A stretch of DNA of 45,141 bases, from assembly GCA_019873655.1 (NCBI GenBank), contig JAIOAU010000022.1:1-45141 (forward strand). Direction: 5' to 3'. The stretch comes from Chloroflexota bacterium (lineage in GTDB: Bacteria; Chloroflexota; Anaerolineae; Anaerolineales; Villigracilaceae). Of this stretch, positions 13,793-22,396 are shown piece by piece (position 1 is the stretch's first letter; each line of letters opens with the position of its first letter). The notes below the pieces were generated by a model. The model had not been told where the DNA came from. It made no database searches and saw only the letters and a list, made by a program, of their open reading frames with translations. The translations under genes and the position numbers were made by a program.

Positions 13793-15739
13793 TCAACCGG
13801 CGCGGTGATGTTCGCGCTTCATGCGGTACATGGCGTCGTCGGCGCGGCGCATGACCGCCTCGAGGTCTTCGCGCTCGGTCCCGGTGCTGACTCCCAGCGA
13901 GAGGCCCAGCCGCGGCTCGCCGTAGAATTTGTTGTTCAAGCGGATGAGGGTTTGCAGGCGGGGGATGGCCTCGGCGGCGGCTTCGGCGTCGGTCTGCGGC
14001 ATGATGACGGCGAACTCGTCGCCGCCGATGCGGGCGACCACGTCCTCCTGGCGGAAGCCGGCCCGCAGGACTTCGGCGGCGCGGCGGATGAGGCCGTCGC
14101 CGGCTTCGTGGCCGAGGGTGTCGTTGGCCTTCTTCAGCCCGTCCAGATCGGCAATCAGGATGCTGATGGGATAATACCGCCCGCTGTTCAAGCGTTTGAG
14201 TTCTTCCTGGAAATAGGCGCGGTTGTAGAGGCCGGTCATCACGTCGTGCGTGCCGAGGTAGCGCAGGTACTCTTCGGCCTTGCGGCGGGCGGTAATGTCC
14301 TCGAGAGAGACCAGCACCCGGTCGAGAGTCTGTTCCGAACCGGGGTAGACGGCCAGGCGCAGGCGGATGTGGATTGGCTCGCCTTGCAGGGTGTAGTTGA
14401 CGCCTTCGGCCTCGTAGGTCAGGTCGCCGTTCCACAGGCAGATCAATTCGTCGCGCCACAGGCGCATCAGTTCGGAATCCGCCTGGCCTTCGTCGCGGAA
14501 GACCTTGTCCAGGTTGGTCATCAGTTCTTCTTTGCTCCTCGCGCCGAACAGCCTGAGGGTCTCCTGGTTGACGTCGAGGACGCGGATGGATTGCATGCAC
14601 TGGACGATGGCCTTGGGATGTTCCTCGAGGTAGGCGCGCAGGTCGTCCACGCCGTCGCGGCGCAGGGAGTCGAAGAAGGCTTTGATTGAACTGAAGTCTT
14701 CCTCCCAGAGGGAGATGGGGGCGTTCTCGAACAGGCCGCGCAGGTGGTCTTCGCTGGCCTGCAGGGCGCGCTCGGCTTGCTTGCGGGCGGTGATGTCCTC
14801 GAGGGCCACCAGCACCCGGTCGAGGGTCCGTTCCGAGCCGGGATAGACGGCGAGATACAGGCAAACGGAAATCGGCTCGCCTTGCAGGGTGTAGTTGACG
14901 CCTTCGGCCTCGTAGGTCAGGTCGCCGTTCCACAAGCAGATCAATTCGTCGCGCCACAGGCGCATCAGTTCGGAATCCGCCTGGCCTTCGTCGCGGAAGA
15001 CCTTGTCCAGGTTGGTCATCAGTTCTTCTTTGCTCGTCGCGCCGAACAGGCGGAGGGTAGCCTGATTGACGTCGAGGACGCGGATGGATTGCATGCACTG
15101 GACGATGGCCTTGGGGTGTTCTTCGAGGTAGGCGCGCAGGTCTTCGACTCCCTGCTGGCGCAGCGAGTCGAAGAAGGTTTGGATTTGGCTGAAGTCTTCC
15201 TCCCACAGGGAGATGGGGGCGTTCTCGAAGAGGCCGCGCAGGTGGTCTTCGCTGACCTGCAGGGCGCGCTCGGCCTGCTTGCGGCGGGTGATGTCCTCGA
15301 TGGAGACCAGCACCTGCTCCCAGGTCTCCTCCGAGCCGGGCAGGATACGCCAGGAGAGGAGGACGTCTATCGGCCGGCCGTCGAGGGCGTAGTTGACGCC
15401 CTCCCCGGCCCAGGTCAGTTCGCCCCGCCAGAGGGTCAGCAATTCGTCGCGGAAGTGGCGGCGCATTTCGTCGCGGAAGAATTGCCCGATGTTGGCGAGA
15501 AATTCGTCTTTGCTCTGCACACCGTACATGGCCAGCGCCTGCCGGTTGGCGCGCAGCAGGCGGATGAGAGCCATATTGGCCTCGATTTCTTCGGGGTGGG
15601 CGTCCAGGTAGGAGTCCAGGTCGGCGACGCCCTGGGCGCGCAGCGCCTCCAGCCGGGCGCGGATGGCGCTGAAATCCTGTTCCATCAGGGCGATGGGGGC
15701 GTATTCGAATAGCATGGTGAAGTGCCTTTCGGTGGGCAT
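13793..15739 (-). CDS. Diguanylate cyclase with three tandem PAS-like modules
   Basis: The 648-residue cytoplasmic protein should make cyclic di-GMP from GTP. The C-terminal domain has the intact active site GGDEF (residues 572-576) and the product-inhibition I-site RQED exactly five residues before it, so feedback control is expected. Three PAS-like modules of 166 residues precede it, each of the form LFENAPISLWEEDFS, LRxxGVxDLRAYLEEHP, IRVLDVNxxTLRLFGA and LVxLEDITAR; modules 2 and 3 are almost identical. No membrane segment is seen. The start at 15739 has GGAGG upstream; the internal ATG eight codons later is an alternative. It is convergent with the HAD-GNAT gene. Confidence 0.93.
   Translation of the reverse strand: MPTERHFTMLFEYAPIALMEQDFSAIRARLEALRAQGVADLDSYLDAHPEEIEANMALIRLLRANRQALAMYGVQSKDEFLANIGQFFRDEMRRHFRDELLTLWRGELTWAGEGVNYALDGRPIDVLLSWRILPGSEETWEQVLVSIEDITRRKQAERALQVSEDHLRGLFENAPISLWEEDFSQIQTFFDSLRQQGVEDLRAYLEEHPKAIVQCMQSIRVLDVNQATLRLFGATSKEELMTNLDKVFRDEGQADSELMRLWRDELICLWNGDLTYEAEGVNYTLQGEPISVCLYLAVYPGSERTLDRVLVALEDITARKQAERALQASEDHLRGLFENAPISLWEEDFSSIKAFFDSLRRDGVDDLRAYLEEHPKAIVQCMQSIRVLDVNQETLRLFGARSKEELMTNLDKVFRDEGQADSELMRLWRDELICLWNGDLTYEAEGVNYTLQGEPIHIRLRLAVYPGSEQTLDRVLVSLEDITARRKAEEYLRYLGTHDVMTGLYNRAYFQEELKRLNSGRYYPISILIADLDGLKKANDTLGHEAGDGLIRRAAEVLRAGFRQEDVVARIGGDEFAVIMPQTDAEAAAEAIPRLQTLIRLNNKFYGEPRLGLSLGVSTGTEREDLEAVMRRADDAMYRMKREHHRAG
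14291..15739. repeat. Intragenic 498-bp tandem repeat (three units)
   Basis: Equivalent points (GGTAATGTCC at 14291, GGTGATGTCC at 14789 and 15287) are exactly 498 bp apart, that is 166 codons. The units at 14291-14788 and 14789-15286 share long identical blocks. The one from 15287 is more diverged and incomplete at its outer end. This indicates recent duplication of the middle module. Confidence 0.85.
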
Positions 15740-15830
15740 GGGGCCTCCGGGAGCCGTGCAGAAGGAAGACGGAGCAATTCGCCCCGCCGGGGCCAGTTAA
15801 GACAATTCTAACCGAGATTTCTCTATTGAA

Positions 15831-16021
15831 CATCTTGCAAAAGTGCTATCACCGTCCTGAGCGGAGCCGCACGCCCTGAGCCTGCCGAAGGGTTGCGCGG
15901 CGTAGTCGAAGGACGTTTTCTCCAGGATGGTCTGAGTTTCTTTTCACTCGCCCTTCGACTGCGCTCCTCGTTGCTGCTCGTTGCTCCGCTCAGGGCGTAG
16001 GATGGACTTATGCAAGAGGTC
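15831..16021. mobile_element. MITE-like inverted-repeat element
   Basis: The 191-bp element has imperfect terminal inverted repeats of about 38 bp. The left end begins CATCTTGCAAAAGTGCTATC and runs into CCTGAGCGGAGC at 15854-15866. The right end read in reverse begins GACCTCTTGCATAAGTCCAT and runs into CCCTGAGCGGAGC. It has no ORF of its own. Internal CCTTCGAC/GTCGAAGG palindromes are frequent. A shortened copy lies at 9594-9664. No transposase is in the window. Confidence 0.65.
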
Positions 16022-16071: not shown

Positions 16072-16126
16072 TTTTACACAACCTTAACCTGTCATTAAAT
16101 AATCCACAAATGGATTGCAGTATCCT
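16072..16126 (+). promoter_or_regulatory. PHO-box-like direct-repeat array and -10 box
   Basis: Four 8-bp units spaced by 3 bp occur at 16072 (TTTTACAC), 16083 (CTTAACCT), 16094 (ATTAAATA) and 16105 (CACAAATG). The two central units fit the cyanobacterial PHO-box consensus (PyTTAAPyPy followed by T or A, 11-bp phasing) well or nearly so; the outer two fit poorly. A TATCCT at 16121-16126 lies 8 bp after the last unit, the usual distance between a PhoB-type site and the -10. The kinase and PstS-like genes lie downstream. This is a pattern match by eye, not a scored search. Confidence 0.5.
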
Positions 16127-16331
16127 GTAGTGGAAACACTGGCGCGGGTCAATTCGAGAGCCTGCAGCGCATGTCCCTCGAGCCTTTCTGCGGCCAGGTC
16201 AGGCATGGGTCTATCAGCGCCGGTCAAGCGTCTGCCCTCCCTTGCGCGGCCCAGACGGCCTTCGACGATGACCTTTTTCTCTGATGAACGCGTAATCGTG
16301 TTTCCTTCTCCTCTACTTGAACGTTTTTGAT

Positions 16332-16364
16332 GATGTACCCTGCCAGGCCGAGGCAGGGTACATC
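16332..16364 (+). other. Strong leader hairpin ahead of the histidine kinase
   Basis: GATGTACCCTGCC and GGCAGGGTACATC are perfect 13-bp arms around a 7-nt loop. The hairpin ends 36 bases before the kinase ATG, in a leader of roughly 270 nt if transcription begins after the PHO-like site. No T-tract follows, so translational control, RNA stability or a transcription-factor palindrome are all possible. Confidence 0.6.
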
Positions 16365-16400
16365 CCTGGAGATCATCGGAATCTGCCGCTCAGCCAGCGT

Positions 16401-18725
16401 ATGAATCTGCCATTTCGCCTCCTGAACCGGTTTCGTATTCGAGGCCTGCGAGCCAAACTGCTCCTGCCGATTGCGGGACTGATGGTCTTCTCGCTGGCCC
16501 TCAGCACGCTGGTTTTCGTCGGCGGCACAGCGCTGACCCGCAACCGGTTGCTCGACCAGCGCCTCGACCAGGACACCCGCCGTCTGACGCAGATTCTGGC
16601 CGGCAGGACGGCCGCCGTCGAATCTGCCGCCCGCGTCATGGCCGCTGACCCCGACATCAACGCCGCCCTGCAACAGAAAACGGAGGCCAGCCTGGCCGAA
16701 GTGGACGCCCGCGCCGTGGTCGTGCGCAACCGGTTCAACCTCGACCTGGTCCAGATCTACGATCGCCGCGGAGATGCCTGGGTCAACCTGGTCACCTCGG
16801 GCTTGTATCGCGTTTCCTCTCTGCTGGACGCGACCAAAGGAGACGCCGTCCAGGTCATCGTCTTCGACGACCGCCTGTTGCTCGTCGGCCGGGCGAGCGC
16901 CGCCGACGGCGGAACGGTCATCGCCGGCATCGATCTGGGCTCCGAACTCGAACGCATTGCCCGCAACGAGAACATCACCTCCCTGGTCGGCCTCCGCCTC
17001 GACGGGACGGGGGTGACCAGTCAGCCCGGCCTGTCCTTCTCTGACTTGCTCGACCAGAATCAGCATCTGGCTCGTCAGATGAGCCTCCCTCTGGGCGGGC
17101 AGGAACTCACCCTCGTCATCAGCCAGCCGACGACCGAGATCGACCGCGTCACCCAGACCGGTCTGTGGGTCGTCGTCCTCGCCTCGATCTTGACCGCCAG
17201 CCTGCTCGTCTTCCTGGGCTCGCGTCTGGTCGATTTGCTGCTTCACCCCATCCAGGACCTGGCCGCCATCTCCGAACAGGTGGCCAGCCGGCGGGATTTT
17301 ACGATCGCTCCCAGCGGTTCCCGCCGCCTCAACCTGCTGCGCATCGGCCAGGACGACGAAATCGGGCAACTGGAAAGTTCCTTCCAGCAAATGCTGGCCG
17401 AATTGCGGGACTTCTACCAGGACCTCGAAAGCAAGGTCGAAGCCCGCACCCGCCAGATTACCACCGCGGCGGAAATCGCCCGCGCCGCCACCTCCAGCCT
17501 GGACCTCGATCGGGTTCTGCGCACCGCGGTCGAGGAGATTTGCTCCCAGTTCGACTATTACTTTGCCGGCGTTTTCATCATCGATGGGAGGTCGGAAATC
17601 GTCTCTCTGCGGCAGGCGGCCGGCATGGCCACCATCGAGAACGAAATCAAGCGCATCGATTTGCCCCTCAGCACCCCCTCTCTCATCACCACCGCCATCA
17701 ACCGCCGCGAGACGCTCATCGTCCAGGACGTTTCCAAGTCCTCCCTCTACTTGCCGCTGGTGGTCTTGCCCGACACGCGCTCGGAGGCCGTCTTCCCGCT
17801 CGTCCATGCGGGCATGGTCATCGGGGCCCTGGACATCCAAAGCGACAAATTGGACGCTTTCCCGCCCGAAATCATCCACACCTTCGAAACGCTGGCCGTG
17901 CAAATCGCCATCGCCGTCCAAAACGCCATCGTCTACGATCGTCAGCGGACGCTCACCCGCCGCCTGGCCGAAATCGACCATCTCAAAGCCCAGTTGCTCG
18001 ACACGATGAGTCACGAATTGCGCACCCCGCTCAATTCGATCATCGGTTTCTCGAAGATCATTCTGAAAGGCCTCGACGGCGAAATCACAGAAGCCCAGCG
18101 CGTCGACCTGACGTCCATCCTCGAGAGCGGCCAGCACCTGTTGCGCATGATCAATGATATTCTCGACATTGCTCAGTTCGAGGCCGGCGAGATCAACCTC
18201 GACCTGCGCCCGATCAACCTGCGCCAGGAGGTGCTCTTCGTCATCTCGCGCCTGCAGGATGAACTGGACAAAAAGCGCATTCGTCTGGAGGTGGACGTCC
18301 CCCCCAACATGCCTTCTGTGATGGCAGATAATGTCCGCATCCAGCAAGTGCTGACCAACCTGCTGGCCAATGCCATCAAATTCACCGACGCCGGCAAGAT
18401 CAGCATCAGCGCCGCCTCCAGCGACCAGTGGGTGGTCGTCACCATCGAAGATACCGGCATCGGCATTGCTCCCGAGGACATCGGCAAACTCTTCCAGCCT
18501 TTCCTCCAGGTGGATGGTTCGTCCACCCGCCGTTTCGGGGGAATTGGCCTGGGCTTGAGCATCGCCCGGTACATCGTCGAGTTGCACGGCGGCCGCATCT
18601 GGGCGGAAGGCCGGCCCGGGGTCGGTTCGGTGTTCTCCTTCACCCTGCCGCTCGATCCGAGCGTCTCGCGCGCCTCGGCGCAAATGATGGATTTCAAAGA
18701 GACCAGAATCTTACAGGAAAGGTAA
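16401..18725 (+). CDS. Membrane sensor histidine kinase (sensor-HAMP-GAF-HisKA-HATPase)
   Basis: With the ATG at 16401 the protein has 774 residues. The order is TM1 (about 19-42), an extracytoplasmic sensor region of about 210 residues, TM2 (about 253-275), HAMP, a coiled linker, GAF (about 353-510), HisKA with SHELRTPLNSIIGF (phospho-acceptor His538), then the ATP-binding boxes NLLANAIKF, EDTGIGIA, LFQPF and GGIGLGLSIA. All catalytic boxes are intact. An in-frame TTG at 16317 would add 28 residues encoded by the leader hairpin, so I reject it. No response regulator is adjacent. A PstS-like lipoprotein gene follows after 7 bp, suggesting that the binding protein and kinase work together. Confidence 0.92.
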   Translation: MNLPFRLLNRFRIRGLRAKLLLPIAGLMVFSLALSTLVFVGGTALTRNRLLDQRLDQDTRRLTQILAGRTAAVESAARVMAADPDINAALQQKTEASLAEVDARAVVVRNRFNLDLVQIYDRRGDAWVNLVTSGLYRVSSLLDATKGDAVQVIVFDDRLLLVGRASAADGGTVIAGIDLGSELERIARNENITSLVGLRLDGTGVTSQPGLSFSDLLDQNQHLARQMSLPLGGQELTLVISQPTTEIDRVTQTGLWVVVLASILTASLLVFLGSRLVDLLLHPIQDLAAISEQVASRRDFTIAPSGSRRLNLLRIGQDDEIGQLESSFQQMLAELRDFYQDLESKVEARTRQITTAAEIARAATSSLDLDRVLRTAVEEICSQFDYYFAGVFIIDGRSEIVSLRQAAGMATIENEIKRIDLPLSTPSLITTAINRRETLIVQDVSKSSLYLPLVVLPDTRSEAVFPLVHAGMVIGALDIQSDKLDAFPPEIIHTFETLAVQIAIAVQNAIVYDRQRTLTRRLAEIDHLKAQLLDTMSHELRTPLNSIIGFSKIILKGLDGEITEAQRVDLTSILESGQHLLRMINDILDIAQFEAGEINLDLRPINLRQEVLFVISRLQDELDKKRIRLEVDVPPNMPSVMADNVRIQQVLTNLLANAIKFTDAGKISISAASSDQWVVVTIEDTGIGIAPEDIGKLFQPFLQVDGSSTRRFGGIGLGLSIARYIVELHGGRIWAEGRPGVGSVFSFTLPLDPSVSRASAQMMDFKETRILQER

Positions 18726-18732
18726 ACAGGCG

Positions 18733-19560
18733 ATGAAAAAAGCAATCTTCCTCTGGGCAATCCTTCTCTTGTTCCTGAGCGCTTGTGGGCCCTCGGCCGG
18801 CGCTCCCCCAGAAGCGAGCAACACTCCCTTGTTCGGCGAATTGACCTTCGCCGGCAGCACCACCGTCCAGCCGCTGGCAGGGGCGCTGGGGGAGGCTTTC
18901 CAGGAACGCCACCCGGATGTCCGCTTGAATATCGCCGCCGGAGGCACCCGCGTCGGCATTCAGGCCATCCACGACGGGACGGTGGACATCGGCATGGCCT
19001 CGCGCGCCCTCAGCGCCGAGGAAGCCCAAGGGATCACCGTCCACGTCATCGCCCTGGACGTGATCGCCATCGTCGTTCACCCGAGCAATCCTCTCGATGA
19101 CCTCGACATGGAAACGCTGGCGGCCATCTACCGCGGCGAAGTGACCAACTGGAACCAAATCGGCGGCCCGGACCTGGAGATTGCGCCGATCGCCCGCGAG
19201 ACCAGTTCCGGGACGCGCGGCGCCTTCGACGAACTGGTCCTGGGCGGGGAAGAACCTGTCGCCTCCGGCCTGCTGACGGCGGTCACCGCCGGCGACATGG
19301 CCGCCATGGTCGCCACCCGGCCGGGCGCCATCGGTTACGTTGGCTTCGGGAATATCACCAGCAATCTCAAGGTTCTCGCCATTGACGGCGTTGCTCCCTC
19401 CAGCGAGACCGCCCGCAGCGGAGAATATCCGCTCGTCCGTCCGCTCAGCCTGCTGACCGGCCCGCTCTCCCAGCCGCTGGCCGACGAGTTCATCAACTTC
19501 GTCCTGAGCCCCGAAGGGCAGCAGATCGTCGAAGAGGCCGGCTGGATTCCGGTGCGGTGA
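18733..19560 (+). CDS. PstS-like phosphate-binding lipoprotein
   Basis: The 275-residue lipoprotein (signal MKKAIFLWAILLLFLSAC, lipobox LSAC) belongs to the PstS/PBP-like family: LTFAGSTTVQPLAGAL near the mature N-terminus, IAAGGTRVGIQAIHDGTVDIGMASR, EVTNWNQIGG and ARETSSGTRGAF, the last resembling the phosphate-binding loop. It would bind phosphate or a similar oxyanion outside the membrane. The transporter genes pstC, pstA and pstB are not next to it; instead it is 7 bp downstream of a sensor kinase, so a sensing role is plausible. Fe(III) or molybdate binding are less likely alternatives. Confidence 0.88.
   Translation: MKKAIFLWAILLLFLSACGPSAGAPPEASNTPLFGELTFAGSTTVQPLAGALGEAFQERHPDVRLNIAAGGTRVGIQAIHDGTVDIGMASRALSAEEAQGITVHVIALDVIAIVVHPSNPLDDLDMETLAAIYRGEVTNWNQIGGPDLEIAPIARETSSGTRGAFDELVLGGEEPVASGLLTAVTAGDMAAMVATRPGAIGYVGFGNITSNLKVLAIDGVAPSSETARSGEYPLVRPLSLLTGPLSQPLADEFINFVLSPEGQQIVEEAGWIPVR

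Positions 19561-19777: not shown

Positions 19778-22396
<2,619 letters not shown>

Follow-up and report, generated by a model that had tools for sequence, protein, structure and literature searches.

A conserved sensor kinase and PstS-type lipoprotein pair in Chloroflexota: a candidate binding-protein-coupled receptor for outside phosphate

Bacterial phosphate sensing is usually explained by flux through the transporter together with PhoU. Receptors that are coupled to a binding protein form another known kind. In LuxP-LuxQ of Vibrio, a separate binding protein works with a kinase that has a double-cache extracytoplasmic domain; its ligand and binding-protein family differ from those of a PstS-type pair. 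In the phosphate chemotaxis of Pseudomonas aeruginosa, the receptor CtpL is stimulated by the binding of phosphate-loaded PstS (PMC4926252). Here we describe a gene pair that is best filed among such receptors, with its construction from a PstS paralogue and its placement in the Pho regulon as the new features. The pair lies on a contig of 45,141 nucleotides from a Chloroflexota genome (3.04 Mb, 45 contigs, 99.8% complete); the entire contig was analysed and is called the window below. A gene for a transmembrane sensor histidine kinase (16401-18725, + strand) is followed by a gene for a PstS-type lipoprotein (18733-19560, + strand), and an array resembling PHO boxes lies upstream of both. A sequence-only reading of this DNA had placed the two genes 7 bp apart, and the coordinates confirm it. 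We think it likely that the pair is a Pho-regulon receptor akin to LuxP-LuxQ or CtpL-PstS, with a PstS paralogue dedicated to reporting phosphate outside the cell.

The described systems resemble the pair in different respects; the comparisons below draw on excerpts of the cited reports. Like LuxP-LuxQ, the pair would combine a separate binding protein with a double-cache kinase, but here the binding protein is a lipoprotein under a PHO-type promoter, and the sensor matches DctB as well as LuxQ by Z score. CtpL-PstS shares the action of a PstS on a transmembrane receptor. However, that PstS is the transporter's own and CtpL is a chemoreceptor, whereas here the paralogue is encoded with the receptor and the outputs are kinase, HD-GYP or GAF-only. 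AioX and ArrX are oxyanion-binding proteins that act in sensing (PMC5908839), and AioX-AioS-AioR and ArrX are similar to the present pair in joining an oxyanion-binding class II periplasmic protein to a kinase. In contrast, AioX is PhnD-like, whereas the window lipoprotein belongs to TIGR02136 (PstS) and no adjacent response regulator was found. In CuaD-CuaS-CuaR, the three components of the system include a second, dedicated binding protein (PMC10384115). The likeness is a sensory binding protein in addition to the transporter's own, although the ligand there is cellobiose and the three-component cluster is complete. Arginine sensing by STM1987 depends on both a dCACHE_1 domain and ArtI, a putative arginine-binding protein (PMC8846402). 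Lastly, RapA of Pseudomonas fluorescens is expressed in low phosphate and links low phosphate to hydrolysis of cyclic di-GMP (c-di-GMP) (PMC3032545), a connection that the HD-GYP variants described below also suggest, although the beginning of the RapA abstract contains no binding-protein-coupled receptor. Among the top matches in the open-access literature (most subscription literature lies outside this scope), we found no description of such a receptor-lipoprotein pair.

The unit noticed in the sequence-only reading is real and conserved. Loci with the sensor were sought with sensor-domain profiles (A3, A4) in overlapping genome samples: 400 from the order, 400 from the phylum, 396 from the class and 158 from another class; in the order, phylum and class searches, the best five or fewer candidates per genome were scored, and extra copies may be missed. 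Many weaker matches covered TM2-HAMP only and were set aside. The sensor domain itself is covered in 37 loci, from relatives up to phylum level, and 35 of these could be judged, as those of G1031 and G1075 are cut off by a contig edge ahead of the following gene. The sequence-only reading had suggested looking for kinase-pstS adjacency in relatives, and a lipoprotein of the same clade adjoins the sensor in 28 of the 35 judged loci. Among these 28 pairs, that of G400 spans two contig ends, the G1115 sensor is broken over two reading frames, and in G1055 and G1124 the lipoprotein gene meets a contig end. An artefact of contig binning is ruled out because the pair is present at another 27 loci. 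The lipoproteins closest to that of the window (68% in G012, 59% in G051 and 58% in G006) are each encoded behind a sensor gene.

Searches with a lipoprotein profile gave full co-occurrence in the order. Both searches, for sensor and for lipoprotein, sampled 400 genomes from the order; the two samples agree in their totals of genomes and genera and share handles. Among the best six or fewer candidates scored per genome (extra copies may be missed), 8 genomes have a lipoprotein at 405 bits or more, and the next best score is 287. The same 8 genomes of the 400 hold both the full sensor and the lipoprotein clade, and none holds one alone. The 158-genome class contains 12 lipoprotein genes that score about 392 bits or higher (391.9 for the lowest), as well as one that is cut by a contig end, and all 13 are beside a sensor; a lipoprotein gene on contig C295 of G1114 is intermediate, at 308 bits. 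Distances among sensors and among lipoproteins are correlated over 26 pairs (r 0.77, with 0 of 1000 permutations as high), a correlation to which common descent contributes. As a separate observation, G733 has two tandem sensors behind pstC-pstA-pstS (L111:2895-11698), without a dedicated lipoprotein.

The lipoprotein (275 aa, with a lipobox cysteine assigned by eye at Cys18) scores 230.7 bits against the PstS family TIGR02136, for which the cut-off is 206.6. It matches four Pfam families, PBP_like_2 best, and no PhnD-type Pfam family at E<=0.001. The three best solved chains are all named phosphate-binding proteins, and the nearest named relative, from an Anaerolineae metagenome-assembled genome, is 78% identical over residues 159-275. 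In a quick tree that carries SH-aLRT support only and has one row (PST_G733) on a long branch, 27 pair lipoproteins fall on one side of a branch and 31 transporter PstS on the other (SH-aLRT 98). Residues G41, S42, T44, S90, R91, S159 and G160 are identical across both groups, and R155 is present in 27 of 27 pair lipoproteins and 28 of 31 transporter PstS; we take the columns common to both groups to be ligand contacts. Clade residues that are rare in transporter PstS are T43, P47, A69, V74, M88, R162 and D166. At the level of sequence comparison, the assignment of the PstS-type lipoprotein as dedicated to the sensor is well supported.

The lipoprotein could instead be an extra high-affinity PstS that feeds a PstCAB transporter encoded elsewhere, with the co-transcribed sensor sensing something else alone. 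Its score above the PstS-family cut-off fits this possibility, as does the presence of pst transporter genes (names over NCBIfam cut-offs) beside 2 of the 28 pairs: pstC, pstA and pstB are directly behind the lipoprotein gene in G1103, and a pstS-C-A-B-phoU set is behind it in G012. The sensor is also structurally as close to the directly sensing DctB as to LuxQ. However, the lipoprotein clade is separate from the 31 transporter PstS, its members in both samples adjoin a sensor (in G400 across two contig ends), and its divergence is correlated with that of the sensor. Furthermore, pstC, pstA, pstB and phoU are absent from the fetched flanks of 26 of the 28 pairs, some of these flanks being short or contig-cut. 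We consider it unlikely that the lipoprotein serves a transporter in this way.

The sequence-only reading had noted no pst transporter genes and no response regulator with the pair. In agreement, tblastn with G012 queries (E 1e-3) found no match to PstC, PstA, PstB or PhoU in the 45-kb window, and none to an OmpR/PhoB-family response regulator, the one regulator type searched there. The same reading had proposed that the unit acts instead of the PstSCAB-PhoU route, and this part has to be given up. The genome has two pst operons, on contigs C2 and C7, and a PhoU on C7, so the unit is an additional input rather than a substitute for PstSCAB-PhoU. On C2, genes for a response regulator (C2:1993-2703) and a kinase come after the pst genes.

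A receptor of the same design could also bind another anion, such as arsenate, phosphonate, phosphite or an organic phosphate, by analogy with ArrX and AioX. ArrX has the higher affinity for arsenate (1 uM, against 150 uM for phosphate); AioX binds arsenite, yet its crystal pocket held phosphate (PMC5908839). In the pair lipoproteins, the clade-specific residues T43, R162, G163, A164 and D166 lie beside conserved columns and might alter the ligand. The names of the solved chains argue for phosphate, however, and the pst linkage in G012 and G1103 and the PHO-type promoters point the same way. We therefore regard a different anion as improbable and phosphate as the probable ligand.

The output of the receptor has changed among relatives while the front end has been kept. 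The 28 paired sensors comprise 20 with a His kinase, 5 with HD-GYP and 3 with no catalytic domain. Pfam, run on 27 of them, found HisKA and HATPase_c in 20, HD_5 in four (G006, G051, G255 and G062), no catalytic domain in three (G1055, G927 and G1083, whose C-terminal ends are GAF-GAF) and HAMP in all 27. The fifth HD-GYP is in the tail of the G400 sensor, which was read apart and in which the motif was recognized by eye. The lipoproteins linked to HD-GYP cluster (SH-aLRT 93, four rows), as do those linked to GAF-only receptors (SH-aLRT 96, three rows), and the swaps therefore look like single events. Retention of the pair through changes of output points to the pair as the sensing unit.

The array upstream of the kinase gene (16073-16105, + strand) consists of three direct 11-bp units, TTTACACAACC (16073-16083), TTAACCTGTCA (16084-16094) and TTAAATAATCC (16095-16105). 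An exact CTTAACCT occurs once, at 16083-16090, together with the looser versions TTTTACAC and ATTAAATA. A degenerate fourth unit, ACAAATGGATT (16106-16116, + strand), keeps the 11-bp register and drops the array score from 19.4 to 17.2. A -10-like hexamer, TATCCT (16121-16126, + strand), occupies unit positions 5-10, in phase with the array, 4 nt past the fourth unit and 15 nt past the third. The array had been described as lying 8 bp before the -10 box. That distance hinges on how the units are cut, whereas the phase (unit position 5) is conserved.

Two matrices place the array at the top of the window. The first was built from 9 units of the pst promoters of C7 in the same genome and of G012. 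With this matrix, 16073 outscores every other of the 90,218 window positions (both strands), and none of 200 dinucleotide-shuffled versions of the 570-bp upstream region reaches the array score. For the second matrix, 49 units were taken from in front of the sensor genes of 14 other genomes, which leaves out the letters of the window and of its own genome. It gives the site 27.7 bits and rank 1 of 90,218, the next non-overlapping position scoring 14.5. This second test is not wholly independent of the first because its 49 units were located by the first matrix. By both matrices, the 11-bp-phased array that had been proposed is real.

The array is also conserved, though not everywhere, and the sequence-only reading had staked its proposal on this. 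Tested in regions made up of at most 400 bp of upstream sequence and 150 bp of the longest open reading frame (p-values uncorrected, with a floor of 1/301), 18 of 27 promoters of paired sensors have an array at p<=0.05 and 12 of 27 at p<=0.01, compared with 1 of 7 unpaired sensors at p<=0.05; the 27 include the window's promoter and exclude that of G400 (p 0.143). Together with the one before the unpaired sensor of G467 and two at contig-cut loci (G1031, G1075), the paired arrays make a set of 21 at p<=0.05. The sequence TANNNT is found at one phase of the 11-bp unit in 16 of these 21 and at any other phase in at most 3. The in-phase -10 is present in 14 of the 18 paired arrays, in G467 and in G1031, and absent in G1075. 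PhoB-type promoters are activated through a phased -10, and the phased TANNNT fits activation from the array.

Similar sites are associated with pst genes. The C7 pst promoter of the same genome and the G012 pstS promoter, which is right behind the lipoprotein gene, carry arrays of the same type, and both were training sites for the first matrix. In the 18 kb of C2 that were scanned, an array at 2777 scores 27.3 with the second matrix and has CTTAACCTGT in common with the window array; it reads into a 95-aa gene situated between the pst genes and the OmpR/PhoB-family regulator gene. Judged from these promoter sequences, membership of the unit in the Pho regulon is well supported.

Genome-wide patterns were less informative. 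Exact TTWAM-N6-TTAAM-N6-TTWAM, a pattern chosen after the window was seen, has 3 matches in the 3.04-Mb genome, of which the one at C19:19474 may be chance. At two or fewer mismatches the pattern is not enriched (60 matches vs 86 for a reversed control), and for this reason we do not trust regulon calls made from it. The loose pattern also caught TTAAC-rich repeats, for example TTAACACGTTTGTAAACGAGTC, on C3, C4, C5, C8, C13, C18, C30 and C41, which look unrelated to the PHO array. A de novo motif search of 25 pstS upstream regions was discarded, as its signal resembled coding sequence of neighbouring genes rather than a PHO box.

The kinase has 774 aa when translated from the ATG, and an in-frame TTG at 16317 would extend it to 802 aa. 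It has two membrane-spanning helices, according to an AlphaFold2 (AF2) model and inspection by eye. All on the + strand, the domains are an extracytoplasmic sensor domain (16560-17132; residues about 54-244), a HAMP linker (17235-17411; 24.6 bits in Pfam, just below the cut-off of 25), GAF (17499-17921), the HisKA phospho-acceptor domain with SHELRTP (17985-18188) and the HATPase_c catalytic domain (18327-18656), the last three from Pfam matches. As a candidate PhoR (TIGR02966) the kinase was rejected, with 149.9 bits against a cut-off of 334.2. The sensor domain of the window kinase has no Pfam match, and dCache_3 is touched by 3 of the 27 paired sensors. An AF2 model of the domain (from a 13-row alignment, pLDDT 82) has a predicted double PDC/cache fold. 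The top Foldseek match of the model is the LuxQ periplasmic domain (3c30; E 7.5e-7, TM by target 0.65), and the fourth is 2hj9, the LuxP-LuxQ complex. Z scores are tied between DctB (14.8) and LuxQ (14.5). The modelled fold is compatible with the reading of a binding protein and is no proof of it.

We lean towards a model in which the pair represents a modular receptor for outside phosphate in Chloroflexota, running parallel to PstSCAB-PhoU: a non-transporting PstS paralogue and a LuxQ-like front end would be Pho-induced together and joined to interchangeable His kinase, HD-GYP or GAF-only outputs. Under low phosphate, a PhoB/PhoP-type regulator would bind the phased 11-bp array and turn on both genes. 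The lipoprotein, a PstS paralogue freed from the PstCAB channel and seated on the membrane, would bind phosphate or a close oxyanion and, either bound or empty, could dock on the LuxQ-like double-cache domain. The resulting receptor state would pass through HAMP and GAF to the kinase, adjusting its activity with either polarity, and the kinase would presumably act on a response regulator. In relatives, the same front end may drive an HD-GYP phosphodiesterase (and hence c-di-GMP) or a GAF-only output. If true, the model would add to the transporter route a second, direct reading of outside phosphate by a dedicated binding-protein receptor, and the HD-GYP form would link phosphate to c-di-GMP. 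It would also provide a testable assignment for a sensor domain that has no Pfam match and, for an uncultured lineage, predict the promoter code of its Pho regulon. The natural output swaps on one input would be material for studying transmembrane signalling.

Several observations weigh against a Pho-regulated receptor for outside phosphate. Adjacent binding-protein and kinase genes can encode proteins that do not interact (PMC11113362). Seven of the 35 judged sensor loci have no adjoining lipoprotein (G467, two in G733, G908, and one each in G1114, G1115 and G1116); the G908 sensor matches CHASE4 over the cut-off and may not belong to the family. The scarcity of pst genes beside the pair, set out above for the flanks of 26 loci, is a further point. 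DctB binds its ligand directly, and with the LuxQ match tied to it, the receptor could sense by itself. In the promoters, 9 of 27 paired sensors, including those of G849 and G1103, have no array at p<=0.05. The test fails for the G012 kinase in the standard region, although farther out, 794 bp upstream of the kinase and ahead of a small gene, there is an array (1 of 200 shuffles as high). No array was found at the C2 pstS promoter of the window's own genome (20 of 200 shuffles as high). The C2 regulator is nearest to YycF and PhoB models, with YycF best, and scores 236.8 against the NCBIfam PhoB cut-off of 296.2; similarly, the C2 kinase is nearest to PnpS and PhoR models and scores 282.7 against the PhoR cut-off of 334.2. 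Attribution of the array to some other OmpR-family regulator, with the unit outside the phosphate response, can draw on the general use of 11-bp-spaced direct repeats in the OmpR/PhoB family, on a C2 regulator that passes no cut-off among the families shown, on the other TTAAC-rich repeats and on the bare C2 pstS promoter, but it is distinctly improbable in view of the same site type at the C7 pst and G012 pstS promoters (both training sites) and of the C2 array between pst genes and regulator gene.

Some other genes near PHO-like arrays deserve mention. The 95-aa protein of C2 (L048:2887-3171) and a 118-aa protein of G012 (L045:10900-11253) are 46% identical over 91 columns and have no Pfam match. 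The C2 gene follows the PHO-like array beside the regulator gene, and its G012 counterpart directly precedes the pair kinase. They are possibly a new small Pho-regulon protein; the flanking sequences of the remaining 27 pair loci gave no match (E 1e-8). Also on C2, behind the kinase gene, a PHO-like array with an in-phase TACAAT (L048:704, - strand) precedes a low-molecular-weight phosphatase (LMWPc) gene (176-619). On C1 of the same genome, a PHO-like array with an in-phase TATAGT (G000:C1:23495-23521; L133:13496) lies before a gene that by eye resembles a PHP-type phosphoesterase, and a similar-looking gene, again by eye, adjoins the lipoprotein fragment in L034.

The transcript of the unit would begin near 16133, as judged by the distance from the -10, giving a 5' leader of about 268 nt (16133-16400, + strand). 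Within it is a hairpin of 13 perfect pairs and a 7-nt loop (16332-16364, + strand), a fold observed in the sequence. A leader of about 270 nt with a strong hairpin had been described earlier; the hairpin holds up and the length agrees with the predicted one, whereas taken as a whole the leader shows no unusual structure (z -1.26; 22 of 200 shuffles reach its stability). The region 16128-16404 has no second copy in its own genome, and the leader and hairpin match no Rfam family at the gathering score (best match E 0.43). With ordinary stability in addition, the idea of a riboswitch is unsupported.

Other genes recur around the pair. In G164, G927, G1155 and, by eye, G1055, a set of genes beside it (L103:814-4506, L199:530-4328, L208:472-4142 and L198:3128-6629) encodes a solute-binding domain protein, a solute-binding/VWA lipoprotein and a protein of about 240 aa (Pfam was run on five of these proteins). 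In the window, clpB (19778-22396) is the neighbour behind the lipoprotein gene. The divergent neighbour on the other side (13793-15739, - strand) encodes a GGDEF protein with PAS domains, and a c-di-GMP link is conceivable since the receptor of relatives can carry HD-GYP. Just 5' of the promoter, at 15830-16020, is a long imperfect inverted repeat with 38-nt arms (76%) and an inner GCCCTTCGACT-type stem, which resembles a repetitive extragenic element.

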